Of a DNA stretch of 22,895 nt, positions 1,080 through 20,572 are shown one piece after another; positions within the stretch are counted from its first letter, which is position 1; each line of letters starts with the position of its first letter. This DNA is from a virus. Made by a program: the position numbers and the translations under genes. The DNA lies in the IMG/VR virus record IMGVR_UViG_3300026473_000584, positions 1 to 22,895 of that record; one strand, given 5' to 3'. The notes under the pieces were generated by a model. The model was not told the origin of the DNA and did not search any database. It worked only from the letters and a program-made list of their open reading frames with translations.

Positions 1080-1613
1080 ATGAAAACCGTAGGACATAAA
1101 ATTGAGAAGTTTGCAGTAACTGGCGTTAATCCCGGTCGAGATGATTTCTTTACCATCACTGATGAATCATTTGCCGGCAAGTGGAAAGTAATTGTTTACT
1201 ATCCAAAAGATTTTACTTTCGTATGCCCAACTGAAATCGTAGCATACGATAAACTATTCCAGGACTTTGCTGACCGTGACGCAGTATTGCTAACAGGTAG
1301 TACAGACAATGAGTTCTGTAAACTAGCCTGGCAAGCAGCACACGAAGATCTAAAAAAGATCAAACACATTCAGTTTGCTGACACACAGCGTGGTGAGTTA
1401 AGCCTAATCGAGCAACTAGGTGTATTCTATGCACCAGCAGGTGCAGCTCTACGTGCCACATTTATTGTTGATCCCGACAACGTTATCCAGCACGTTACTG
1501 TCAATAACTTGAACGTGGGCCGTAGCCCAGAAGAAACACTTCGTGTTCTTGATGCACTACAGACCGGCGAACTATGTGCCTGCAATCGCACAGTTGGCGG
1601 CGAAACACTGTAA
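1080..1613 (+). CDS. ahpC: Peroxiredoxin AhpC (2-Cys, CxC type)
   Basis: Thiol peroxidase that reduces hydrogen peroxide, organic hydroperoxides and peroxynitrite in the cytoplasm. The 177-residue protein has the peroxidatic motif PKDFTFVC (P42, T46, C49) followed by PTE, and a C-terminal CAC pair (C166, C168) that matches the CxC resolving-cysteine arrangement of actinobacterial-type AhpC, the class reduced by AhpD rather than by AhpF. Start is fixed by AAGGAGA 6 nt upstream and its own sigma70-like promoter. It heads a plus-strand cluster that also contains ahpD 0.8 kb downstream, with four small genes between, so the two probably form one system. Peroxiredoxins are uncommon in phages; every key residue is present, so the protein is probably active. 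Confidence 0.93.
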   Translation: MKTVGHKIEKFAVTGVNPGRDDFFTITDESFAGKWKVIVYYPKDFTFVCPTEIVAYDKLFQDFADRDAVLLTGSTDNEFCKLAWQAAHEDLKKIKHIQFADTQRGELSLIEQLGVFYAPAGAALRATFIVDPDNVIQHVTVNNLNVGRSPEETLRVLDALQTGELCACNRTVGGETL

Positions 1614-1621
1614 GGTAAACT

Positions 1622-1783
1622 ATGAAGCCAGTATTAATACAAACTTTAATAAAGAAAATGCGTGGACGCATCAGTAACCTACCAATGCCCAATGCTGTGG
1701 AAATTCCCACCAGACGGGATAGATCGGGTACATTTATAATAGTTTTTTTAGTACTGGCATTAATTGCTACTATTTTAATTTGA
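1622..1783 (+). CDS. Small C-tail-anchored membrane protein
   Basis: A 53-residue protein starting 8 nt after the ahpC stop, with AAGG just upstream of the ATG. The first 35 residues are basic and polar (KKMRGR, PTRRDR) and the last ~18 are hydrophobic (FIIVFLVLALIATILI), ending the protein inside the membrane. This fits a single-span C-tail anchor with a cytoplasmic basic head. No family recognised. The tight spacing to ahpC and to the next gene indicates co-transcription. Confidence 0.65.
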   Translation: MKPVLIQTLIKKMRGRISNLPMPNAVEIPTRRDRSGTFIIVFLVLALIATILI

Positions 1784-1790
1784 GGTTGTT

Positions 1791-2186
1791 ATGTTAGAAT
1801 GTCTTATTCTAGGAGACAGCATTGCCAAGGGTATAAGTGATGTAAGAAGGGAATGTGCTGCCTTTGTGCAAAGTGGTATCAACAGCAGTGACTGGAACGA
1901 CAAGTATGTTAAGAAAATCGTACCTGCCCGTAGTACAATTATAAGTCTAGGCAGTAACGACTACCGCAACCTTAACACTGAAATTGAATTAGTAGCATTA
2001 AGAACGCACGTAAATTCCGATCACGTTTACTGGATAGTACCTGCAATTAAACCAGAAAAACAAGAACTAGTTAGAAAAATTGCTAGACACTTTGGGGATA
2101 CTTTTGTCAATATTCCTGAACTTTCCCCTGATAAGGTACACCCCACCTATCGTGGTTATAGACAACTAGGAGTACTTACTAAATGA
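1791..2186 (+). CDS. SGNH/GDSL-like hydrolase, short
   Basis: 131 residues with the landmarks of the SGNH hydrolase fold: ILGDS near the N-terminus (nucleophile S10), SLGSNDY (G54, N56) as the oxyanion block, and SPDKVHP (D114, H117) as the C-terminal catalytic pair. Members are esterases or lipases acting on acyl or acetyl groups, and phages often carry short ones, sometimes for surface sugar de-acetylation. At 131 residues it is shorter than the usual ~180-200, with a compact middle. GAGG precedes the ATG. Its stop overlaps the next ATG (ATGA), so translation is coupled. Substrate unknown. Confidence 0.7.
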   Translation: MLECLILGDSIAKGISDVRRECAAFVQSGINSSDWNDKYVKKIVPARSTIISLGSNDYRNLNTEIELVALRTHVNSDHVYWIVPAIKPEKQELVRKIARHFGDTFVNIPELSPDKVHPTYRGYRQLGVLTK

Positions 2187-2254
2187 GTTATAGAGAATAT
2201 TTTGACTATTTAAAAAATTATCATTGCCCCAGTTGTAGGAGTAACAAACAATGA
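2183..2254 (+). CDS. Tiny CPSC protein, 23 aa
   Basis: A 23-codon frame starting in the ATGA overlap with the hydrolase and ending in another ATGA overlap with the next gene. It contains YHCPSCRSNK, a CxxC knuckle that could bind zinc. The start and stop overlaps on both sides are the main argument that it is translated; at this length nothing more can be claimed. Confidence 0.5.
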   Translation: MSYREYFDYLKNYHCPSCRSNKQ

Positions 2255-2400
2255 GCAAGGGAAGTAAACCTAGACCCTACAGTGTGGATCAGAAAACTTT
2301 TGATCAACGATGGGACGCAATTTTTAAAAAACAAGATACTGATACAGATCTAAAACAAAAAGAAAAGGAAAAGAAAAATGAGTTGGATAAATCAAATTAA
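2251..2400 (+). CDS. Small charged phage protein, MSKGSKPRPYS type
   Basis: 49 residues beginning MSKGSKPRPYSV and continuing with FDQRWDAIFKKQ, then a highly charged Lys/Glu/Asp tail. The N-terminal wording is one I associate with small conserved proteins of many tailed phages, without a known function. It starts in an ATGA overlap and its last 23 nt overlap the start of ahpD in another frame, so it is part of the same translational chain; its Lys-rich tail codons also hold the ahpD ribosome binding site (AAAAGGAAAAG). Confidence 0.65.
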   Translation: MSKGSKPRPYSVDQKTFDQRWDAIFKKQDTDTDLKQKEKEKKNELDKSN

Positions 2401-2890
2401 AGAAAGTTTGCCTGAGTATGCCAAAGATACAAAACTTAATATCGATGCTGTTATTACTCGTAGCAGTCTTGATATTACCGAAGCTAATGGATGCGCTCTT
2501 GCAGCCGCAATGGCGACCGGTAATGGAAAACTCGTTACGTTTATACAGTCAAATATGGAAGATGCCCTTGAACGAGACGCCGCACTGACAGCAGCGGCAA
2601 TTATGGCACAGAACAATGTCTGGTATCCCTATGTTGAAATGGCTGAAGATGAAAATTTAAAAGGTCTACCAGCGCAACTACGTATGAATGCAATTGCCAG
2701 TCACGGTGGCACTACCAAGGCAAGATTTGAAGCCTATAGCCTCGCTGCAAGTATTGTGGGCAAGTGTCATTTCTGTGTTAAGGCACACTACGACACACTC
2801 AAGAAGGAAGGCTACACAGTAGAACAACTTCGTGACATTGGACGTATTGCCGCAGTAATCAACTCAGTTGCCAAGGTTTTAAATAGTTAA
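2378..2890 (+). CDS. ahpD: Alkylhydroperoxidase AhpD
   Basis: 170-residue all-helical thiol protein that passes electrons from dihydrolipoamide (SucB/DlaT plus Lpd in mycobacteria) to AhpC, with weak peroxidase activity of its own. The catalytic set known for mycobacterial AhpD falls at exactly the same residue numbers here: E118 (RFEAYS), C130 and C133 (KCHFCVKAH) and H137. The start is supported by AAAAGGAAAAG just upstream, inside the previous gene. With ahpC in the same cluster the phage has the complete peroxidase-adaptor pair and would need only host lipoamide and its dehydrogenase for reducing power. Confidence 0.93.
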   Translation: MSWINQIKESLPEYAKDTKLNIDAVITRSSLDITEANGCALAAAMATGNGKLVTFIQSNMEDALERDAALTAAAIMAQNNVWYPYVEMAEDENLKGLPAQLRMNAIASHGGTTKARFEAYSLAASIVGKCHFCVKAHYDTLKKEGYTVEQLRDIGRIAAVINSVAKVLNS

Positions 2891-4277: not shown

Positions 4278-4561
4278 CGTAGTTCATCATATGTTTGAAC
4301 AATGGCAATTTTACTAGGATCAGATTTACTGTCGCTAGGTACTGGTAAGGTTTGCCATTCTTCTTCGCTGACGTCACAGACTATAACTAGTTCGTATTCG
4401 TGTCCATCTGAACTGTAGCATCGGACGGTTTCTAGTCCCGCTAGACCCTGGGCGGCATCTTCTAGATGTCTAGCCAGGGATCTTAGTGCGGATCGTTCTG
4501 CTACAATATAACCTCGTGTACCTGGTCCTTGGTGTGAATGTAAGTGTATTCTTGATTTCAT
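4253..4561 (-). CDS. Small unknown protein coupled to DnaE-like gene
   Basis: 102 residues, starting in an ATGA overlap with the stop of the polymerase gene, which implies translational coupling. Sequence shows HLHSHQGPGTRGYIV, a helix rich in Ala/Leu (SALRSLARHLEDAAQGLAG) and a strand-rich middle ending in a six-serine tail. The Ser tail is encoded antisense to the acidic Glu/Asp tail of the convergent plus-strand gene, so the two C-termini share 25 nt. No family recognised; co-transcription with a polymerase suggests but does not show a DNA-metabolism role. Confidence 0.65.
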   Translation of the reverse strand: MKSRIHLHSHQGPGTRGYIVAERSALRSLARHLEDAAQGLAGLETVRCYSSDGHEYELVIVCDVSEEEWQTLPVPSDSKSDPSKIAIVQTYDELRQSSSSSS

Positions 4562-6231
4562 TGTATGTGTGCTATGTCGATTAATTTTAATTTTTTAGAT
4601 TTAAACACTGTAACATATTCTGTGTTGTTTTTGTAGCCAAGTTTACCGAATCCCCACAAAACTGGATGATCTTGAAAACTTGCCGCGTGTGGTAGCACAA
4701 CATCTAGGTAACGGCCATTACCAGTACCCAGTGTGACAAAGGTTATATAATCTTTCGCTCCTGATTTAAACACACGATAGTTAGCCACTAGACCACAAAA
4801 CTCCACCTGGCCGGGCTTGCGTATTTCCTGACAGGCTGGTATAAATCTTGAAGAACGCCAACGTCCCTGTTCAATGAGATCACTTACCTCGCCACCTTCT
4901 CCCAATGAGGGAACTGCGCCAGCTAATTTGGCTTCCTGCCAGTAGACCCAGTGTGCGTAACTACCCTGGCAGTGTTTGAGTGCAGCTTGCCAAAACTTTT
5001 CTGGGTTATGAGCTTTTTGGTAGGCCAAGGCCCAGATAAGTCTGCCTAGATTTATGGCGTGTGCTCGGCAAAGTCCGAAGTGACTGAGTTCTCGTAGTGC
5101 TAGTAGTACATCATCTCGTCTTGGATGATCACCCACTAACTGCATAAACTCAAACATTTTTTCTTCATTCTTTTTTGCAAATGCACGACGCCACATATCA
5201 GCTTCATACTGATCACAACCTAGTATCTGTCCTATTAGTTCAATGGCATCATCTTCAAAGACAATAGTTTCTGATAGGTTATCTTTTGTCCAGTCCTGGA
5301 AGGCACTGGCTCGGCGGCGGCCTTGTGTGGCCACTGGTCTTATTAGTGCTGTGGCCAATACGCAGTCGGCACGACTAGTGGGACGTATGGCTCTAAATAA
5401 TCTTTTCATAGCAGGACTTTCTGCCTGCGTAACACCCAGTATGTCTCCACGACTTAATAGAGCTGAGGTTTTGTCATCTGTTTCAGGATAATCCAAGAGG
5501 TCACGTTGCTCTATTTCCCAGAGCTGACTAAGTCCACGGTTGGATAATATGTCTATTTTAAAATGCTCAAGATCTTCTATCTCATATTTGTCTAGTAGTA
5601 TCTGATTCTCACCGTTGATTAAACTTTTAGGTACACTACGATCAAATATCAGTATGCCGCCACAGTGTTTAGAGATACATCGTTTTTTGCCTAGTAGTTT
5701 ATCTGCTAGACGTTCTGCTTCATCAACGTATTCTTCTGCCACAACGTCTGATAGTTTAAAATTACGTTTGAGTTTACCCTTGGCGCCGTAGCGTTTGGCA
5801 GCTTCGCGTCTTGCTGATTTTTCTTTGTAGGTGACATAGTTACTTACACGGGCACTCTGACCGGGCCAGCGGCGGAAGATTCTGTTCATTACAGTTTCTT
5901 GTTGATAATGCGGAAAGTCAAGATCAATGTCGGGTAGATCGTCCCTCTTGGGATTCATAAAACGTGAAAGGGGTATACGTTCTTTTATGGGATCTACATC
6001 ACTGATGCCCATCACGTAACAGATTAAACTGCTGCCTGCTGAGCCACGAGTTATATGTGGTATGTCTTGTGTTAGGTCTAGTATTTCTCTTACACGTAAA
6101 AAATGTTTGGCAAATCCCAGTTTAGCTATTATCTCTAGTTCTTCTTCAAGTCTTTTAGTATATTCTTCAGTGTCGGGTATTGATCTAGTAAATTTTTTAA
6201 TTAGTTTTTCGAGTTCGTCATATCGGTTCAT
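4558..6231 (-). CDS. PHP-less DnaE-like family C DNA polymerase
   Basis: 557 residues aligning with the catalytic core of bacterial DNA polymerase III alpha. RGSAGSSLICYVMGISDVDP and the palm motif PDIDLDF (D101, D103 aligning with E. coli D401, D403) are followed by HCGGILI and FKIDIL, where D227 aligns with the third catalytic Asp (E. coli D555). Later blocks (ADMWRRAFAKKNEEKM; a GRLIWALAYQKAHNPEKFW helix) match the fingers and following region, and an OB-like segment (VEFCGLVANYR) lies near the end. The N-terminal PHP domain and the beta-binding/tau-binding tail are missing, so it is about half the usual ~1100 residues. It could be the replicative or an accessory polymerase. AGGTGA precedes the ATG and a TATAAATA box lies 30 nt upstream. 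Confidence 0.87.
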   Translation of the reverse strand: MNRYDELEKLIKKFTRSIPDTEEYTKRLEEELEIIAKLGFAKHFLRVREILDLTQDIPHITRGSAGSSLICYVMGISDVDPIKERIPLSRFMNPKRDDLPDIDLDFPHYQQETVMNRIFRRWPGQSARVSNYVTYKEKSARREAAKRYGAKGKLKRNFKLSDVVAEEYVDEAERLADKLLGKKRCISKHCGGILIFDRSVPKSLINGENQILLDKYEIEDLEHFKIDILSNRGLSQLWEIEQRDLLDYPETDDKTSALLSRGDILGVTQAESPAMKRLFRAIRPTSRADCVLATALIRPVATQGRRRASAFQDWTKDNLSETIVFEDDAIELIGQILGCDQYEADMWRRAFAKKNEEKMFEFMQLVGDHPRRDDVLLALRELSHFGLCRAHAINLGRLIWALAYQKAHNPEKFWQAALKHCQGSYAHWVYWQEAKLAGAVPSLGEGGEVSDLIEQGRWRSSRFIPACQEIRKPGQVEFCGLVANYRVFKSGAKDYITFVTLGTGNGRYLDVVLPHAASFQDHPVLWGFGKLGYKNNTEYVTVFKSKKLKLIDIAHIQ

Positions 6232-6269: not shown

Positions 6270-6368
6270 GTTCTAAAACTAGTGTTAAGAACTTTTGGAT
6301 CATATGCTAATGAAATCACTTAGTATAAAATAATGATTCACTGGATATGAATCTTGGGAATTTTTAGT

Positions 6369-6374
6369 TATAAT
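6369..6374 (+). promoter_or_regulatory. Likely -10 box for pqqA
   Basis: Perfect TATAAT 50 nt before the pqqA ATG. The -35 position (6346-6351, TATGAA at 17 nt) is poor, so expression may need an activator or phage factor. The leader contains AAGGAG at 6411-6416. Confidence 0.5.
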
Positions 6375-6423
6375 TGGGATACATACAGAGACAGTATGTC
6401 AATTTTTATCAAGGAGAATGAAA

Positions 6424-6498
6424 ATGGCTTGGACAACACCAGCAGCACAAGATATGCGTTTTGGTTTCGAAATCACAATGTACATCGCAAATCGTTAA
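6424..6498 (+). CDS. pqqA: PqqA, PQQ precursor peptide (24 aa)
   Basis: 24-residue peptide beginning MAWTTPAAQDMRFGFEIT and ending MYIANR. PqqA is the ribosomal substrate from which pyrroloquinoline quinone is made: PqqE, a radical SAM enzyme, with the chaperone PqqD joins a Glu to a Tyr three residues apart, and PqqF/G, PqqB and PqqC finish the cofactor. The peptide has the family length (23-29), the W-x-x-P start, the R-x-G-F-E core and E16 and Y20 at the same numbers as the reactive residues in the Klebsiella peptide. AAGGAG lies 7 nt before the ATG and a strong terminator begins 9 nt after the stop, so it is a free-standing transcription unit, like many bacterial pqqA genes. No pqqB-E is visible here, so host enzymes would be needed. 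Confidence 0.9.
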   Translation: MAWTTPAAQDMRFGFEITMYIANR

Positions 6499-6507
6499 TA
6501 AAAAATT

Positions 6508-6528
6508 AAGCCCCGCAAGGGGCTTTTT
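6508..6528 (+). terminator. Rho-independent terminator of pqqA
   Basis: AAGCCCC-GCAA-GGGGCTT: a 7 bp perfect stem with a GNRA tetraloop, followed by T residues. It lies directly after pqqA and may also stop minus-strand transcripts that pass the glycosyltransferase gene. Confidence 0.88.
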
Positions 6529-8271: not shown

Positions 8272-9678
8272 TTAGAAGTTCAATTGACTTCTAAACATTA
8301 TGGCTCGATCACCAGTTACTCGACCACCTGCAGAGCCTACAAGTTGATCAAACTGCGTGTCAACATAGTTAAGCATAAATCTCATATTATCAGTAGCGAA
8401 CCAAGTTAGACCGTAGGTAATAGCTGTAGCACGATTTGATTTACCTGTAGCTACGGTGATGTCGCTAGCATCAAACTCGCTTAAACGTACACCTATTTGC
8501 CAGGCACCGCGACCACCTTTGTCTAGAGGATTGTTGGGTTTAACTGCACCGAACACTCCATCCTTGTAGTTATAACCTTCGCCTGTCAGGTTGTACACAG
8601 CCAATACATAGTAACCTTTAATTTCCTTATCTGCACCTGTTGTAGGATCATATTTAAAATTAAATTGTTCTGCTTGTACTTTGAATGCGTTATAGGCAAA
8701 TGCAGCTTCTAGACCTTGACGTGTTCTTGTAGTGATGCCACCGAGTGCTGGACCAGTAAACCAGGCATTTTGTGAGCGTGATTCTGTCCTAGCACTAGCA
8801 GGTGTTACACCACCTTTTATCTCACCTGTACTGTAAGCAGCACCCAAATGAGCAACATACGTCTTACTGCCAGTAAGATCAGCAATGTTAGTAGTAACAC
8901 GACCAATATAGTCTAGACCATCTGATACAGCATCTTTGTTGCCACGACCACGACTTACTGCTAGAGCGTAAGTTAATCCAGTTTTTGGTACACCGTGTAG
9001 CATAAATCCAGTTTCTTTTGCGGGAATTAGTTCGCCTTCCGCTTGACCAACTAGGCTGCGTTCCATCATATCAATGTTGTTAGAACTTTGTAGTTGTTCA
9101 AGACTGAATGGCATCTTGAACAAACCAAATTGGTATTGTAGTTCTGGATTAGCAGCATAGTTGACCCAGGCTACGTCCATATTAGTTGACGAACTAGCTG
9201 CACCTACATCGTTACCAAAGTTACCAACTAGTTCGTATTTGAAGTCTTTGGCAAATTGTCCACGCACTCCAAAACGTGCGCGGCGCATTTCTGCTAGGTC
9301 CTGATACGAATCTGTGGTTTGACCTGCACCGTAAGTCGGGGAGTATTGACGATAGTCCATATGTAGTCGACCTGTAAGCTGAATGGTATTGTTGCCATCT
9401 TTGCTTTTGAGACCGATTCCGTTTTCTGTGACTGCGCCGTCGTTGACTCTTGCGATTCTATATTTGTTTGATTCGCTGACATCCTTGTCTATTCTTTGTT
9501 CTATGAACTTACGGTTTTCTGCTCGTTCTTCGTGAGCTTGTACTTTACTGTCATATTCACTCTGCGTCAATATACCTTTGTCCTTTAAAATTTTTAAAGT
9601 ATCAAGGTAATCGTCTGCATAGGCTGGTACACAAAATGCAAGACTAAAGGCCAGAGCTAGTGTTGTTAATTTTTTCAT
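8272..9678 (-). CDS. Phosphate-selective porin, OprO/OprP family
   Basis: 468 residues. Signal peptide MKKLTTLALAFSLAFCVPAYA with cleavage after AYA, then a short periplasmic helix (TLKILKDKGILTQSEYDSKV) typical of OprO/OprP-type porins, then a long beta-barrel with alternating aromatic/polar strands ending in QLNF, a terminal Phe that the BAM complex recognises. Family members (PF07396) form anion pores selective for phosphate or polyphosphate. Start taken at 9678, where AAGGA lies just upstream and the signal peptide begins, rather than at an in-frame ATG 18 nt earlier that overlaps pstS. Its position 8 nt behind pstS makes phosphate the likely solute. Outer-membrane porins are rare in phage genomes. 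Confidence 0.88.
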   Translation of the reverse strand: MKKLTTLALAFSLAFCVPAYADDYLDTLKILKDKGILTQSEYDSKVQAHEERAENRKFIEQRIDKDVSESNKYRIARVNDGAVTENGIGLKSKDGNNTIQLTGRLHMDYRQYSPTYGAGQTTDSYQDLAEMRRARFGVRGQFAKDFKYELVGNFGNDVGAASSSTNMDVAWVNYAANPELQYQFGLFKMPFSLEQLQSSNNIDMMERSLVGQAEGELIPAKETGFMLHGVPKTGLTYALAVSRGRGNKDAVSDGLDYIGRVTTNIADLTGSKTYVAHLGAAYSTGEIKGGVTPASARTESRSQNAWFTGPALGGITTRTRQGLEAAFAYNAFKVQAEQFNFKYDPTTGADKEIKGYYVLAVYNLTGEGYNYKDGVFGAVKPNNPLDKGGRGAWQIGVRLSEFDASDITVATGKSNRATAITYGLTWFATDNMRFMLNYVDTQFDQLVGSAGGRVTGDRAIMFRSQLNF

Positions 9679-9686
9679 TTTTTTCC

Positions 9687-10712
9687 TTATTTCCAAATTG
9701 TTGTATTGTCTGGACCTTTAAGATCCTTTTTCCAGTTATCCTGTACTAACTTGATAACTGACTGTGGCAAGTGAACATACTCTAGCTCTTCACTCATCTT
9801 AGCACCGTTCTTATAACTCCAGTCAAAGAATTTAAGAATTGCACGACCTGTTAGTGCATCAGTTTGTTGCTTGTGCATTAAAATAAAACTTGCACCTGTA
9901 GCTGGCCAAGCATCCTTACCTTTTTGATCTGTTAGCAACAAATACATTCCTGGAGCATTAGCCCAGTCTGCATTAGCTGCTGCCGCTTTAAATGTACTAT
10001 CATCTGGTTGTACAAAATTACCATCACGATTTTTTAATTGTGCATAGGCAATTTTATTTTTTTTAGCAAAGGCATATTCAACATAACCAAACGAACCTTT
10101 AACACGTTGAACGTTAGCTGCCACGCCTTCGTTACCTTTGCCGCCTACGCCCACTGGCCATTTAACTGCGGTGCCCTCACCAATGGCCTTTTGAAATTCG
10201 GCATTAACTTTACTTAGATAGTTTGTCCAAATAAATGTTGTGCCCGATCCATCTGCACGATGAATAACTGTAATATTGATTGCAGGTAGATTAACACCAG
10301 GATTCAAATCAGCAATTGCTTTGTCATTCCATTTTGTAATCTTACCTAGATGTATATTAGCAATGACATCGCTGGTTAGTTTAAGTTGTCCAGGTTGTAC
10401 TCCATCTAGATTAAACACAGGCACTACGCCTCCTATGATGGCAGGGAACTGTACAAGTCCTTCTTTATCTAATTCCTCAGGCTTTAGTGGCATATCACTG
10501 GCACCAAAATCAACTGTCTTGGCTTTGATTTGACGAATACCGCCACCTGAACCAATTGATTGATAATTTAATCCAATACCAGTTGAAGCTTTATAAGCCT
10601 CGGCCCATTTAGAATATATTGGATAGGGAAAGGTAGCACCTGCTCCAGTTAGGTCTGCTGCCTCAGCGGATATAGCTAGTGAGGAAAACAATACCAATAA
10701 AAACTTTTTCAT
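9687..10712 (-). CDS. pstS: Periplasmic phosphate-binding protein PstS
   Basis: 341 residues. Signal peptide MKKFLLVLFSSLAISAEA, then mature ADLTGAGATFPYPIYSKW, very close to E. coli PstS in wording throughout: IGSGGGIRQI and DFGASD (phosphate loop), FPAIIGGVVPVFN, HRADGSGTTF (anion-binding Arg/Asp/Ser/Gly), WPVGVGGKGN and FFDWSYKNGA. It binds phosphate in the periplasm and delivers it to the host PstCAB transporter. GGAGAT lies 5 nt before the ATG at 10712; a longer frame from 10763 would place 17 residues before the signal peptide and is rejected. Phage pstS genes are known from marine cyanophages. First gene of a two-gene operon with the porin. Confidence 0.95.
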   Translation of the reverse strand: MKKFLLVLFSSLAISAEAADLTGAGATFPYPIYSKWAEAYKASTGIGLNYQSIGSGGGIRQIKAKTVDFGASDMPLKPEELDKEGLVQFPAIIGGVVPVFNLDGVQPGQLKLTSDVIANIHLGKITKWNDKAIADLNPGVNLPAINITVIHRADGSGTTFIWTNYLSKVNAEFQKAIGEGTAVKWPVGVGGKGNEGVAANVQRVKGSFGYVEYAFAKKNKIAYAQLKNRDGNFVQPDDSTFKAAAANADWANAPGMYLLLTDQKGKDAWPATGASFILMHKQQTDALTGRAILKFFDWSYKNGAKMSEELEYVHLPQSVIKLVQDNWKKDLKGPDNTTIWK

Positions 10713-10746
10713 ATATAATCTCCATTTAATGTGCATTGCACAAAAA

Positions 10747-10754
10747 TATTTAAA
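10747..10754 (-). promoter_or_regulatory. Possible late-type promoter of pstS
   Basis: TTTAAATA on the minus strand, one mismatch from TATAAATA, 34 nt upstream of the pstS ATG with room for the GGAGAT site. I saw no convincing Pho box (paired CTGTCAT repeats) in this gap. Confidence 0.4.
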
Positions 10755-10815
10755 CACAGGCATATTACCGTTTAATTACAAATCTGCAATTTAGGCAGTA
10801 AACTGGTAATATTAC

Positions 10816-12725: not shown

Positions 12726-12872
12726 ATGAATAAAACTTTACTGGATTGTCTCTACGAAGAACTTGTTATGCTGGATGAGCAGGCTGGTTGCTTTGATGAA
12801 GAAACTAACGCTCGTATTGATGAACAGCGTAACAAACTCTATAATCAAATTAAAGAACTGGAAGTAAATTAA
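12726..12872 (+). CDS. Small helical protein, 48 aa
   Basis: MNKTLLDCLYEELVMLDEQA followed by a charged helix ending KLYNQIKELEVN; heptad spacing of Leu/Ile suggests a helical hairpin or coiled coil. A longer frame from 12654 lies inside the previous gene and is rejected. One base separates it from the preceding stop and its TAATG overlaps the rIIA start, so it is translated in the rII operon. Confidence 0.68.
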   Translation: MNKTLLDCLYEELVMLDEQAGCFDEETNARIDEQRNKLYNQIKELEVN

Positions 12873-15037
12873 TGATTATCAATAATGCACCCCAAGAACA
12901 GGCAGTGGTAAGCAATGTTAACGAGATTGGTGAATTCCGTATCCGTAACAGTGCAAAAGCTTTTAACATTCTTTCGTCAGGTCTTTATGCCAACAAAATT
13001 CGTGCAATTATACGAGAGCTATCGTGCAATGCTGTGGACAGCCACGTGGCTGCTCAGCGTGGTGATCTACCTTTTGACGTCCATCTTCCTAATGCGCTAG
13101 AACCCTGGTTCAGCATTCGTGACTACGGCACAGGCCTTAGCCACGAGCAGGTCACCAACATCTACACCACCTACTTTGAAAGCACCAAGACCGAAAGTAA
13201 TGATTTTATTGGTGCTCTTGGTCTGGGTAGCAAGAGTCCCTTTAGCTACACTGACAACTTCACTGTGACCGCGGTGCAGAATGGTCAGCGTGGCATCTAT
13301 ACTGCCTTTATCAATGATCAAGGTGTGCCCAGTATTGCCCTGATGATGCAGGATGCCAGTGACGAGCCCAACGGTGTTGAGGTTAAGTTTAGCGTAAACG
13401 ATCGTTCGGACTTTGATCGTTTTCGTCAGGAGGCTATCTTTGTCTATCGTTACTTTAAACTACGTCCCATAATTTCAGGTTGTGAAGGTTTTACATTTAG
13501 CGAACCAGAATACCTTGATCAGGATATCATTCCCGGTGTGCATACTTCCTCCAAGTCGCGGCACGGCGACAGTGTGGCTATTATGGGTAACATTGAGTAT
13601 CCAATCTCTGTACCTAATGCAGACAAAGGACTTGGTGATCTAGCTAAACTTCTAGAATGCGGTCTTGTTATGGAGTTTGACATTGGCGAACTGGATTTTC
13701 AGGCCAGCCGTGAAGGTCTTAGCTATGTTCCGCAGACTATTCTGGCTATCAAGAGCAAGTTAGAAAAACTCAAGGCTCAGCTCACTGTCAAGGTGGCAGA
13801 AGAAGCTGACAAAATTGACAACCTCTGGAAACGTAGCTACTACCTTATTGAACGTAGCCATCACCTGCTCTGGCGTCCCGCAGTGCAACAATACATAGCT
13901 GACAGTGGTTTTAAATTAATTAATGCCCAACAATCTAGTTATGTCAGTGTCCATCGTTTTCGCCCCTACGTTGATGATCTTGCTGCTAATTTTAATATTG
14001 TTATTAAAAGTTTTAGCAGATCACGTGGTATGGACACCTGTCAGAGTCGCAAGCCCCATAAAGAATATAAACCCAACACACCAGACCAACTGATGTTCTG
14101 GGAAATCCTTGCCAGCACAGTTACTCATTTTGTAGTAAACAAATCCAAACTGGGTGGATTGGAGCGTACTAAACATCATTATCGTAGACATAGTATAATC
14201 CCCCAGGGCGAACATAATGTAGTGGTCTATGTCATTGAAGCCAAGGATCATAGCCAGCCAATGAAACTAGATGAGTTCTGGCAGTATCTAGAAAATCCTC
14301 CTGCCGAGCAAATGTTTGACATTGACGATCTAGACAAAAAACCACGTGCTAGCACGGGCCTAGGTCAAAACGTTACTCTGCTCAGTCTGGAAGAGCGTAG
14401 TGTACGTGGAGGATACAGTCATCAGAAAAAATATGTCTGGGCTGATGCTGGTAAACTTACCAGCTACGACAAGTCACAGCCCTTTTACTATGTGCCTCTA
14501 GTTGGTTACCAGGCACAGGGTGTATTTGATGATGCCAAGGATCTTAAAGATTATTTGGTAAAGGCTGACATCTTCACAGGTCGTATTTTTGGAGTAAGAA
14601 AAGCTGATCTTAAGACTGTGGAAAGTCAAAAAAATTGGATAAACATAGACCAATTTGTCCGGGAAAAATTGTCCGAAGTGAACAAGGACTCTGTGATGGG
14701 TATGGTCAAGTCAGCCATTGACTTTAAAGAAGTTTTCAAGCATAATGATGCTATTGCGCTGATTGATGCTCGTAGTCCCTATGTACAATTTTTTAATATT
14801 TTTCGGGATGTACGTGCCGTTAACAGTCGTGTGGAAAGTGCTCAGCAATACTTGTTCAAGAGGTATGGTATTAACTCACAGGTGGGTGATCCCGGTCAGT
14901 TAATTACAAAGTATCGTAAGGAAATTGAAGAGATAACTAAAAGATATCCTCTGTTGTTGAATATAAGTTCCTACAGCACCACTAACGAAGCACTAGCAGA
15001 ATATATTAACGCAATTGATCTAATGAAAGGTATTTAA
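12872..15037 (+). CDS. rIIA: RIIA-like GHKL ATPase
   Basis: 721 residues. The N-terminal third has the Bergerat ATP-binding fold of GHKL ATPases: N box IIRELSCNAVDSH (E49, N53, D56), G1 box RDYGTGLS (D84, G86, G88) and G2 box GALGLGSKSPFSYTDNF (G114-G119). The rest lacks familiar motifs and matches the long, poorly understood C-terminal part of T4 RIIA-type proteins. In T4, RIIA and RIIB are membrane-associated proteins needed to grow on RexAB lysogens and they influence lysis and replication. TAATG overlap with the upstream small gene; rIIB begins 1 nt after its stop, the classic rIIA-rIIB arrangement. Confidence 0.9.
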   Translation: MIINNAPQEQAVVSNVNEIGEFRIRNSAKAFNILSSGLYANKIRAIIRELSCNAVDSHVAAQRGDLPFDVHLPNALEPWFSIRDYGTGLSHEQVTNIYTTYFESTKTESNDFIGALGLGSKSPFSYTDNFTVTAVQNGQRGIYTAFINDQGVPSIALMMQDASDEPNGVEVKFSVNDRSDFDRFRQEAIFVYRYFKLRPIISGCEGFTFSEPEYLDQDIIPGVHTSSKSRHGDSVAIMGNIEYPISVPNADKGLGDLAKLLECGLVMEFDIGELDFQASREGLSYVPQTILAIKSKLEKLKAQLTVKVAEEADKIDNLWKRSYYLIERSHHLLWRPAVQQYIADSGFKLINAQQSSYVSVHRFRPYVDDLAANFNIVIKSFSRSRGMDTCQSRKPHKEYKPNTPDQLMFWEILASTVTHFVVNKSKLGGLERTKHHYRRHSIIPQGEHNVVVYVIEAKDHSQPMKLDEFWQYLENPPAEQMFDIDDLDKKPRASTGLGQNVTLLSLEERSVRGGYSHQKKYVWADAGKLTSYDKSQPFYYVPLVGYQAQGVFDDAKDLKDYLVKADIFTGRIFGVRKADLKTVESQKNWINIDQFVREKLSEVNKDSVMGMVKSAIDFKEVFKHNDAIALIDARSPYVQFFNIFRDVRAVNSRVESAQQYLFKRYGINSQVGDPGQLITKYRKEIEEITKRYPLLLNISSYSTTNEALAEYINAIDLMKGI

Positions 15038-15038
15038 T

Positions 15039-15806
15039 ATGAGCTACCCTTATATAATCCAGGGCAAAAACATCACTGTGGTCATTGATAATGTACCGCA
15101 TACTATTAGTAATACTCACATCACCTACCAGAAGGTTCTTGATGCTATCAAGGCCGAGGACTGGACACAGGTGCGTGACATCATTGAACCACGTAAGGTT
15201 GTGTTGAACTACGGCCAGGGCAATGTCAGTATCCAGGGTGAAAAGATGTTCTGGAAGGGCCGCGAGTTTCATAATGCTATGAGCCGGCGTATGATTCAAA
15301 TGCTGCAAGAAGGTTTCAGCATCGAGCCTCTGGTTAACTTTATGGATAACCTAATGGAGAATCCCAGCCATCGCAGCGTAAACGAACTCTACGGTTTTCT
15401 AGAAAAGAACAACCTTCCTATCACACCCGACGGCCATTTCTTAGCCTACAAGCGAGTGCGCGAGGATTACCGGGATTGCCATACTGGAACTATGGATAAC
15501 AGTGTGGGTAAAATTGTAGAGATGGAACGTAATTCAGTGGATGACAATTCTAGCAACACCTGCAGCTCGGGTCTACACTTCTGCTCACAGGAATACCTGA
15601 GTAGTTTTGGTGGTGAGCGAACAGTGATCGTCAAGATTAATCCACGCGATGTGGTTAGTATTCCCAACGATTACAATAACAGCAAGGGTCGTGCCTGCCG
15701 TTATGAAGTAATTGGTGAGGTTGGTGTACGTCAAGAAGATGAAGAGCAGGATTTTACTGCACCAGTACAGGAAAATGCCAACTCTGTACCTGATAGCCTA
15801 TACTAA
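15039..15806 (+). CDS. rIIB: RIIB-like protein
   Basis: 255 residues. Contains the RIIB-type core: TYQKVLDAIKAEDWTQV, the FHNAMSRRMIQMLQEGFSI helix, PLVNFMDNLMENPSHRSVNE, FLEKNNLPITPDGHFLAYKR, and the C-terminal CSSGLHFCSQEYL with two Cys, then IKINPRDVVSIPNDYNNSKGR-like wording with RYEVIGEV. RIIB acts with RIIA; in T4 both affect host membrane physiology and exclusion. It directly follows rIIA and ends a run of co-oriented genes. Length is below T4 RIIB (312). Confidence 0.9.
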   Translation: MSYPYIIQGKNITVVIDNVPHTISNTHITYQKVLDAIKAEDWTQVRDIIEPRKVVLNYGQGNVSIQGEKMFWKGREFHNAMSRRMIQMLQEGFSIEPLVNFMDNLMENPSHRSVNELYGFLEKNNLPITPDGHFLAYKRVREDYRDCHTGTMDNSVGKIVEMERNSVDDNSSNTCSSGLHFCSQEYLSSFGGERTVIVKINPRDVVSIPNDYNNSKGRACRYEVIGEVGVRQEDEEQDFTAPVQENANSVPDSLY

Positions 15807-18929: not shown

Positions 18930-19220
18930 ATGGATTTACTAAAAGATATAGGCTTATTTTTTCTAGTGCCTGGTATTGTTGTTTTATGGGCAGTATTATG
19001 CTATAGGGGTGATGAACCTAGTAATTATAAAATTATTCGCGAAACTAATTCACTGGGAGAGACGAGATACGAAGTATGGTTTGAATATCCAGTATTTTTT
19101 TGGAATCCCCATACCTGGTGTTTAAAGGAAATATTTGATACTGAGCAACTAGCAATGGAGTTTGTAGCTCGACAAAAAAACAAAAAAAGAGAAGTACTTA
19201 AACAGGGTCAACTAAATTAA
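18930..19220 (+). CDS. Membrane-anchored small protein, 96 aa
   Basis: N-terminal membrane span (IGLFFLVPGIVVLWAVLCY) followed by a cytoplasmic part with aromatic strands (YEVWFEYPVFFWNPHTWCL) and a charged helix with Lys-rich end. Starts 3 nt after the previous stop. Ribosome binding site not obvious. Its last 23 nt overlap the convergent radical SAM gene. Confidence 0.65.
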   Translation: MDLLKDIGLFFLVPGIVVLWAVLCYRGDEPSNYKIIRETNSLGETRYEVWFEYPVFFWNPHTWCLKEIFDTEQLAMEFVARQKNKKREVLKQGQLN

Positions 19221-20499
19221 TCCAGTTAACAAACTCGATGGGGAATATATCTTCAAGTTTATGTTTAGAAGTCTGTTGATAGATTTTGACAAATCGTGAA
19301 AGATCTTTTCTAAGAACAGTGGCATCTCCCACAAGCAAACTATTTTCTGTTTTTAGAAATGCTATTATTTCTTCTATATGACTTAATTCGTTATGATCTA
19401 AAAAAGATTTATTCTCATCTAACCAGGTTATAAATTTTGTAGCTAGATGTTCTTTTATATTAGTTGGTAATAGGGCGACGCATTGAAACTCTGGTTTTCT
19501 TACCAGTGAATTAAAATAATGTGCAATTTTATTATTATATTTTTCTCTCAGTGATAAGTGATAACTAATTGCATCTAGAAGTCCCCATATACTAAAAACA
19601 TTTGTGGTACTTTGAATATACAAATAAAAATTTTCTGGTGTGTTGTCTAGGTAATAGGATACATTATCATAAAAGGTTTTAACATCAAGGCCTTGTCGTG
19701 TAAATTCTGCTATAGGCCCATCTGCATCCAGACTAGCAGCAATTATTATCCTTTTAAATTTTTTTGTTTTTTCAATAAATTTGTCTAGGGTACTCTTATC
19801 ACAACTTAAATTACTGTTAATTGATATATCTAGTTCCGGAGAACTTTCCGACAGTATTTCCAAAAATTGCCAGAAATTATTACTCAATAAAGGCTCACCT
19901 CCACTAATACGTAGATATTGAACTTTATCCTGAATGAGCGGCCACCACTTCATCCAGGCGTCAAAATATTCCTGTTTAGTCTGTCCAGGTTTAATCCAGA
20001 CCTTATTGTATTTGTGCTCAGTGTCAGATTTTAAGAAAAAAGGTCGTTTTTTAATAATGGTTGCCCAGCTGGAACTCTGTCCGGAATCACAATAACTACA
20101 AGTAAAATTACAAACATTATCAAATATAACTTCTATAAACTTGGGTATATGATGAGGATCAATTGCCAGTGTATCAATATCATCCTGCCAGACGTCATTG
20201 TGTAATAGTCTATCACTTAAAATGTTGTCTCCAAGATCTTCTATTTGCCAACAACTATAACATTCATTGGGTCTATGACCATCTAGCATAAGCTTCTGCA
20301 TTTTGAGTTTATGCGGTGTATTATGTAGTACAAAGGGATCGTCTAGAAGTTCCTGAGGAATCTGATGTGGTGGCGGAAGGCTGCAACTATTGCTATTTCC
20401 GTGATTTAAATAGAGAAATAAATCGTTCCATTTTCTAGGACAAAAAAATTTACTTCTTGTTTCTAGCTTTTTGTAGATGGCAAGGTCTTTTTGATTCAT
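19198..20499 (-). CDS. Radical SAM enzyme with N-terminal Cys-rich region
   Basis: 433 residues from the ATG at 20499. The core has CNFTCSYC (C130, C134, C137), LRISGGEPLLS (SAM-binding GGE) and SINSNLSCD. Unusually, a Cys-containing segment of about 120 residues precedes the core (FFCPRKWNDLFLYLNHG; HRPNECYSCW with C80, C83), reminiscent of the twitch-type auxiliary-cluster region seen in radical SAM proteins of large aquatic phages. Substrate unknown. An earlier ATG at 20550 would read through the late-type promoter and is rejected. Overlaps the convergent gene by 23 nt. Confidence 0.87.
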   Translation of the reverse strand: MNQKDLAIYKKLETRSKFFCPRKWNDLFLYLNHGNSNSCSLPPPHQIPQELLDDPFVLHNTPHKLKMQKLMLDGHRPNECYSCWQIEDLGDNILSDRLLHNDVWQDDIDTLAIDPHHIPKFIEVIFDNVCNFTCSYCDSGQSSSWATIIKKRPFFLKSDTEHKYNKVWIKPGQTKQEYFDAWMKWWPLIQDKVQYLRISGGEPLLSNNFWQFLEILSESSPELDISINSNLSCDKSTLDKFIEKTKKFKRIIIAASLDADGPIAEFTRQGLDVKTFYDNVSYYLDNTPENFYLYIQSTTNVFSIWGLLDAISYHLSLREKYNNKIAHYFNSLVRKPEFQCVALLPTNIKEHLATKFITWLDENKSFLDHNELSHIEEIIAFLKTENSLLVGDATVLRKDLSRFVKIYQQTSKHKLEDIFPIEFVNWINLVDPV

Positions 20500-20510
20500 A
20501 ATTATTGAAA

Positions 20511-20518
20511 TATTTATA
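20511..20518 (-). promoter_or_regulatory. T4-late-type promoter TATAAATA
   Basis: Perfect TATAAATA on the minus strand (20518 to 20511), 11 nt before the radical SAM ATG; expected transcription start leaves a leader of only a few bases with no ribosome binding site. Confidence 0.6.
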
Positions 20519-20543
20519 GATGTCCTAAGCTTGATTTTTATAA

Positions 20544-20572
20544 TTGACAAAATTATAAACTATTGCTAGAAT
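20544..20572 (+). promoter_or_regulatory. Sigma70-type promoter
   Basis: TTGACA (20544-20549), 17 nt spacer, TAGAAT (20567-20572), diverging from the late-type promoter of the radical SAM gene and driving the gene at 20589. Confidence 0.65.

Follow-up and report, generated by a model that had tools for sequence, protein, structure and literature searches.

What does a phage gain from a gene for PqqA, the precursor peptide of PQQ, when it must leave the conversion of that peptide to its host? The question is raised by a viral contig from IMG/VR (record IMGVR_UViG_3300026473_000584, positions 1 to 22,895), whose whole stretch of 22,895 nucleotides is here called the window. A preliminary description, made from the letters alone, had recognized a pqqA gene in it; no described viral pqqA was known to its author. 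One exists, though: viral pqqA together with a viral methanol dehydrogenase had been reported from Lake Baikal for VP_266, a virus with a Methylophilaceae host (Coutinho et al., 2020; PMC7678222), and pqqA is also listed among viral genes in a reservoir paper of 2026 (PMC13188868). Viral pqqA is thus of a known kind; its spread and its host-type control are, as far as we can see, new. In the open-access literature we found no account of the spread of viral pqqA, its solitary state or the shared box described below, and the papers on the phages Melnitz, MEP301 and MEP401/402 do not report pqqA.

The Peptide and Its Reacting Pair

The 24-codon PqqA with a W-x-x-P start, an RFGFEIT core, E16 and Y20 that had been read from the letters is indeed there: the ORF lies exactly at 6424-6498 (+), and W3-x-x-P6, RFGFEIT, E16 and Y20 are in place. 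A PqqA profile search, which had been proposed as a check, placed the peptide above the curated cut-offs of both Pfam (PF08042; 38.8 bits, E = 8.4e-10, cut-off 21.1) and NCBIfam (equivalog TIGR02107; 39.1 bits, E = 4.7e-10, cut-off 20). Glu and Tyr are three residues apart (E16-I-T-M-Y20), as PqqA membership requires, and E16/Y20 in the numbering of Methylorubrum PqqA is the pair cross-linked by PqqE (PMC10906245). A chance ORF is excluded because related phage contigs carry pqqA at 92-100% identity and because all 120 IMG/VR pattern matches listed (see below) extend to a W-x-x-P start and to a stop a few codons past the core. As judged from its sequence, the ORF is confirmed as a genuine PqqA with the reacting pair intact. 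The features of the window are given in Table 1.

Table 1. Positions of pqqA, its putative expression signals and other genes in the window
Feature	Position	Strand	Basis or remark
pqqA, 24-aa PQQ precursor peptide MAWTTPAAQDMRFGFEITMYIANR	6424..6498	+	ORF and PqqA profile matches
Candidate PQQ box CTAATGAAATCACTTAG, near-palindrome	6307..6323	+	9.2 bits to cellular motif
Weak second site TAATGATTCACTGGAT	6331..6346	+	By position only, <3.5 bits in the window
-10 box TATAAT; -35 hexamer not found	6369..6374	+	Sequence and promoter search
5' leader hairpin ACATAC-AGAGACA-GTATGT	6381..6399	+	At predicted transcript 5' end
Ribosome binding site AAGGAG, 7 nt 5' of ATG	6411..6416	+	Sequence
Terminator-like hairpin AGCCCC-GCAA-GGGGCT, then T (GC-rich, five T)	6509..6528	+	
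Two radical SAM proteins	2-931 and 19198-20550	-	Second of twitch-domain type (NF033640)
AhpC-like peroxiredoxin, conserved small protein (1791-2186), AhpD-like protein	1080..2890	+	
Phage DnaE-type DNA polymerase, phrog_405	4558..6231	-	Lineage marker adjoining pqqA
Phosphate-selective porin and PstS-like phosphate-binding protein	8272..10763	-	Served host prediction
rIIA and rIIB, viral hallmark genes	12872..15806	+	Mark the contig as viral

A Phage Contig

Besides the phage-type genes rIIA and rIIB, the contig encodes a DnaE-type DNA polymerase, an ATP-dependent ligase and a protein resembling a phage release factor. The gene pqqA also occurs in two contigs from other samples that belong to this polymerase lineage, L339 (record G002) and L340 (record G004), the encoded peptide being identical to that of the window in L339 and 92% identical in L340; PstS, the porin and the polymerase are encoded on both. 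On L339, AhpC is followed by the small protein, AhpD and, directly adjoining, pqqA, whereas in the window the three genes are found 3.5 kb upstream of pqqA. That pqqA has moved relative to them argues against an assembly artefact. The phage origin assumed at the outset is therefore borne out, both by the hallmark genes and by neighbors that are kept in related contigs from other samples; the window contig is genuine phage DNA, and its contamination with bacterial DNA is out, given rIIA, rIIB, polymerase and ligase and the same neighbors in other assemblies. Within this lineage pqqA is patchy (present in L339 and L340, that is in 2 of the 42 other polymerase-bearing records searched, several of which are fragments) and hence dispensable.

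Other features of the window may be mentioned here. The PstS and phosphate-selective porin pair, phage genes of phosphate uptake, is common to the pqqA-bearing contigs L339, L340 and L342. Six or seven small proteins encoded one after another between 15817 and 17611 resemble tandem paralogues, and many of them share an F-x-L-R-W-S-like tail; between 18034 and 18926 there is a tandem of three small proteins of the same type (beginning with MNERI, HFG at the end). The two radical SAM proteins were considered as PqqE and rejected, since neither matched the PqqE model.

Spread of Viral pqqA

When 50,697 phage records were searched at the protein level, pqqA was found in Melnitz (four records), P19250A, MEP301, Venkman and MEP401/402, all phages of Methylophilales, as well as in a podovirus from Manatee Spring (uncultured) and two records named Acinetobacter phage MD-2021a. 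The latter was discarded as a viral relative because the record that was opened (L005, CAKLQF020000010.1) contains a bacterial-type pqqABCDE operon; with its ppk, fur and isochorismatase genes it is probably bacterial DNA. In the inspected records of cultured methylophages pqqA is either not annotated or overlaid by an ORF on the wrong strand, in agreement with the earlier suspicion that the gene had been missed in related phages. ORFs annotated opposite to pqqA mask the real gene at 5967-6062 in L002 (Melnitz gene 152) and at 2067-2195 in L004, and the annotation of both needs correction.

Scanning IMG/VR with a degenerate DNA pattern yielded at least 120 contigs with pqqA. A second scan, for which E16, T18 and Y20 were left free in the pattern, found 15 contigs beyond the first, so that at least 135 IMG/VR contigs with pqqA are now at hand; among the matches listed, all three residues were kept in 120 of 120. 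Viral pqqA is under purifying selection (pN/pS of 0.28 in the codons outside the scan pattern, calculated from sequence pairs that are not independent). When two shared proteins were required for grouping, the loci fell into 17 groups, an approximate number as many loci are fragments; with one shared protein nearly all loci joined. The groups include the T4-like Melnitz, P19250A/Venkman, the Zobellviridae MEP401/402 and large phages of up to 356 kb. A single phage lineage as the carrier of all viral pqqA was rejected in view of these gene-sharing groups. Viral pqqA is far commoner than described and mostly unannotated.

Substrate Without Enzymes

Homologues of PqqB, PqqC, PqqD and PqqE were not found beside viral pqqA at any of the 120 loci listed, and none of 50 whole pqqA-bearing viral records contained PqqE above the cut-off. 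At these loci and in these records a complete viral PQQ pathway, with PqqB, PqqC, PqqD and PqqE on the phage, was not encountered. A phage without PqqB-E contributes the peptide but depends on the host for the enzymes. One of the 50 records encodes a PQQ alcohol dehydrogenase (34049-35731 in L051, record G608, 72 kb), perhaps a case like Baikal VP_266.

Candidate hosts carry cellular pqqA as well as PQQ dehydrogenases, and viral PqqA identical to the host peptide is common. Among the cellular genomes tested, the number of pqqA copies was 3-7 in Methylophilaceae, nine in one Methylophaga and one in Comamonadaceae-type genomes. The nine copies of the Methylophaga MAG (G064, behind locus L189) are located within 2.6 Mb, some of them close together. 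For a PQQ-producing methylotroph five pqqA have been reported, which differ in their expression (PMC9851590). The extra pqqA of Methylophilaceae and Methylophaga are like the viral ones in that they stand alone, outside pqqBCDE.

A Candidate PQQ Box and Other Putative Expression Signals

A near-palindrome recurs upstream of host and viral pqqA. The motif, learned solely from 149 dereplicated cellular pqqA upstream regions, is CTMAKKAAAATCATGA (reverse TCATGATTTTMMTKAG, 16 bp), has 20.6 bits and is present in about 69% of the cellular upstream regions. At 10 bits or more it was found in 66% of 111 dereplicated viral pqqA upstream regions, as compared with 1.3% of dinucleotide shuffles and 1.2% of 817 upstream regions of other genes at the same viral loci. 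Relearned from 49 pqqA that are surely cellular, because their loci carry pqqB-E homologues, the motif gave 65% for viral pqqA versus 1.2%.

In hosts, near-exact matches precede pqqB and copies of pqqA; others adjoin the genes for a PqqU-like TonB receptor, a SoxYZ-like carrier (quinoprotein-associated), the quinoprotein relay zinc metallohydrolase 2 and cytochrome b561. We therefore named the motif the PQQ box. The remaining host matches, mostly with one mismatch, are at sites without an evident link to PQQ, and in one host a box-like site adjoins a catalase-peroxidase gene. For Methylophilaceae and their relatives the box outlines a candidate PQQ regulon, of interest even without phages. In Methylophilaceae, many of the extra pqqA have this box in front of them, as viral pqqA does; measured from the ATG, most box centers are at -110 to -140 in cells and at -70 to -120 in viruses.

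The box of the window is weak (p about 0.02 when the region upstream of its pqqA was shuffled for comparison); its position (-115 to -117) is kept in the relatives L339, L340 and L012, which have sites of 14-15 bits there. The second site corresponds to one of 9.1 bits in L339, at -92, and to one of 18.6 bits in L108, at -91. Across unrelated phages the box is recognizable, whereas most of the leader is not. Viral pqqA thus looks as if it carries a host-type PQQ box, a candidate host operator. In Pseudomonas a LuxR-type response regulator, AgmR/PedR, co-controls pqq and quinoprotein genes (PMC12997753). This control, and the gene for a LuxR/NarL-type response regulator that is found, with a PqqU-like gene, near pqqA in the related genomes L389 and L390, suggest a regulator of this type as the candidate that binds the box. 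The likeness to AgmR/PedR lies in the regulator gene near pqqA; the PQQ-box regulator is here a candidate only.

The pqqA of the window had been credited with expression signals of its own, which holds with two qualifications. The ribosome binding site, the -10 box and the hairpin followed by T are present, but a -35 hexamer was searched for on the + strand upstream of the gene and not found, and the terminator scan scored the hairpin at 6509-6528 on the - strand only, the + strand score being missed because two T pair into the stem. A terminator-like hairpin follows pqqA in 48 of 123 viral cases. The leader opens with ACATAC-n-GTATGT directly 3' of the -10 box not only in the window but also in several other large phages. 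Among the viral loci checked, such a hairpin occurs only ahead of pqqA, except for one conserved sequence near the polymerase gene, which we take to be coding. Taken together, the leaders of viral pqqA have more structure than those of other viral genes (Mann-Whitney p = 1.7e-7). A 5' hairpin as a universal feature of viral pqqA proved true in part only, since 26% of the leaders are individually significant in their structure. An Rfam search of the pqqA leader gave no match to a known RNA family. The 5' hairpin and the terminator-like hairpin would suit a short, stable and abundant message. In general the viral cassette consists of a host-type box, a promoter without a clear -35, a ribosome binding site and 23-24 codons, often with a 5' hairpin and sometimes with a terminator.

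The Predicted Host

For host prediction 399 genomes of the Burkholderiales as defined in GTDB (Methylophilaceae included) were compared. Both the peptide (92%) and PstS (76%, against 70% for the runner-up) were matched best by one genome of 3 Mb, G206; for the porin, this genome ranked second within its family (54%; best 56%). Its pqqA lies near a PqqU-like gene, its pqqB has the box at the start, and the PQQ alcohol dehydrogenase model gave eight matches in it, several of them above the cut-off. From peptide type, PstS and porin the host is predicted to be a member of the Burkholderiales outside the Methylophilaceae, with several PQQ alcohol dehydrogenases and not necessarily a methylotroph. 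The emphasis that had been placed on methanol dehydrogenase therefore suits the phages of Methylophilaceae, whereas for the window the same three markers point elsewhere in the Burkholderiales.

Proposed Role and Alternatives

We consider it likely that phage pqqA is a minimal auxiliary metabolic gene, which adds only the substrate peptide to the PQQ pathway of the host and does so under host-type control. The phage would make PqqA during infection and host PqqD would present the peptide to host PqqE, which would cross-link E16 with Y20; host PqqB, PqqC and proteases would complete PQQ. The extra PQQ would be loaded into periplasmic quinoprotein dehydrogenases, and the benefit that we infer for the phage is that electron flow into respiration would be maintained. 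The dose of peptide is a plausible bottleneck because one peptide is spent per PQQ. Since the cassette contains a host-type box, to which a host regulator would bind, viral pqqA is probably on when the PQQ regulon of the host is on. In engineered Acetobacter PQQ rose by 29% with pqqAB and eightfold with the full pqqABCDE (PMC7936290), and in some hosts the main limit may therefore lie elsewhere than in the peptide.

The AhpC and AhpD homologues near pqqA in the window, and directly adjoining it in L339, together with the box-like site beside a catalase-peroxidase gene in one host, could mean that PQQ or the peptide serves mainly in the defence against oxidative stress. We regard this as unlikely, because L340 has pqqA without AhpC or AhpD within the 20 kb examined, because the AhpC of the window was matched in one other contig only among the pattern-found viral pqqA contigs listed, and because in hosts the box marks quinoprotein genes. 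The phage could also profit from shutting down host metabolism, and PqqA binds PqqD and forms a 1:1:1 complex with PqqE (PMC10906245); the peptide might then be a decoy that ties up PqqD/PqqE and lowers host PQQ, or might act unconverted as a regulatory or other peptide. A decoy could do without the reacting pair, but all of the 120 matches listed have E16 and Y20, and host-identical peptides are common among viral PqqA, which makes this role quite unlikely.

A bacterial contamination of the kind met in the MD-2021a record with its whole pqqABCDE operon, or a useless passenger gene, is very improbable in view of the phage genes on the same contig (rIIA, rIIB, polymerase, ligase), the recurrence of the same neighbors in other assemblies, the complete genomes of cultured phages that carry pqqA and the purifying selection. 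Hardly credible is that the box rather than the peptide matters and that the cassette titrates the host regulator: the box is recognizable in unrelated phages and most of the leader is not, which is in favor of this reading, but one or two sites per genome are few and the invariance of the coding sequence would be left unexplained. Returning to the supply of substrate to the host pathway, we lean towards the wider view that numerous unrelated phage types carry an operator-promoter-peptide cassette of about 200 bp, which places the substrate under the PQQ regulon of the host, and that viral pqqA is among the commonest overlooked auxiliary genes in phages of PQQ-using Proteobacteria, methylotrophs among them.

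Relation to Other Phage Genes and Significance

The genes pmoC, dsrC and psbA are single-subunit auxiliary genes of other phages. Viral pqqA is like them in that one part of a host pathway is supplied in dose, and differs in that it provides the consumed substrate of a ribosomal-peptide pathway, where those provide an enzyme or carrier. VP_266, like the window, is a phage contig with PqqA and was read as carrying an auxiliary metabolic gene that raises PQQ. In contrast to VP_266, pqqA of the window is solitary, encodes a Burkholderiales-type peptide and has a weak candidate for a host-type promoter box, and 49 of the 50 pqqA-bearing viral records tested are without a PQQ alcohol dehydrogenase.

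Viral pqqA is an unusually clear case of a phage gene that retains an apparent host operator. The cultured pairs of phage and host (Melnitz and Venkman with H5P1; MEP401/402 with FZCC0133) make the idea testable now. In lakes and coastal seas, methanol and alcohol are oxidized with PQQ enzymes. If the phages of the main methylotrophs routinely boost PQQ, an effect on one-carbon cycling would have been missed, also for cultured phages with published genomes, because the gene is too small for gene callers.
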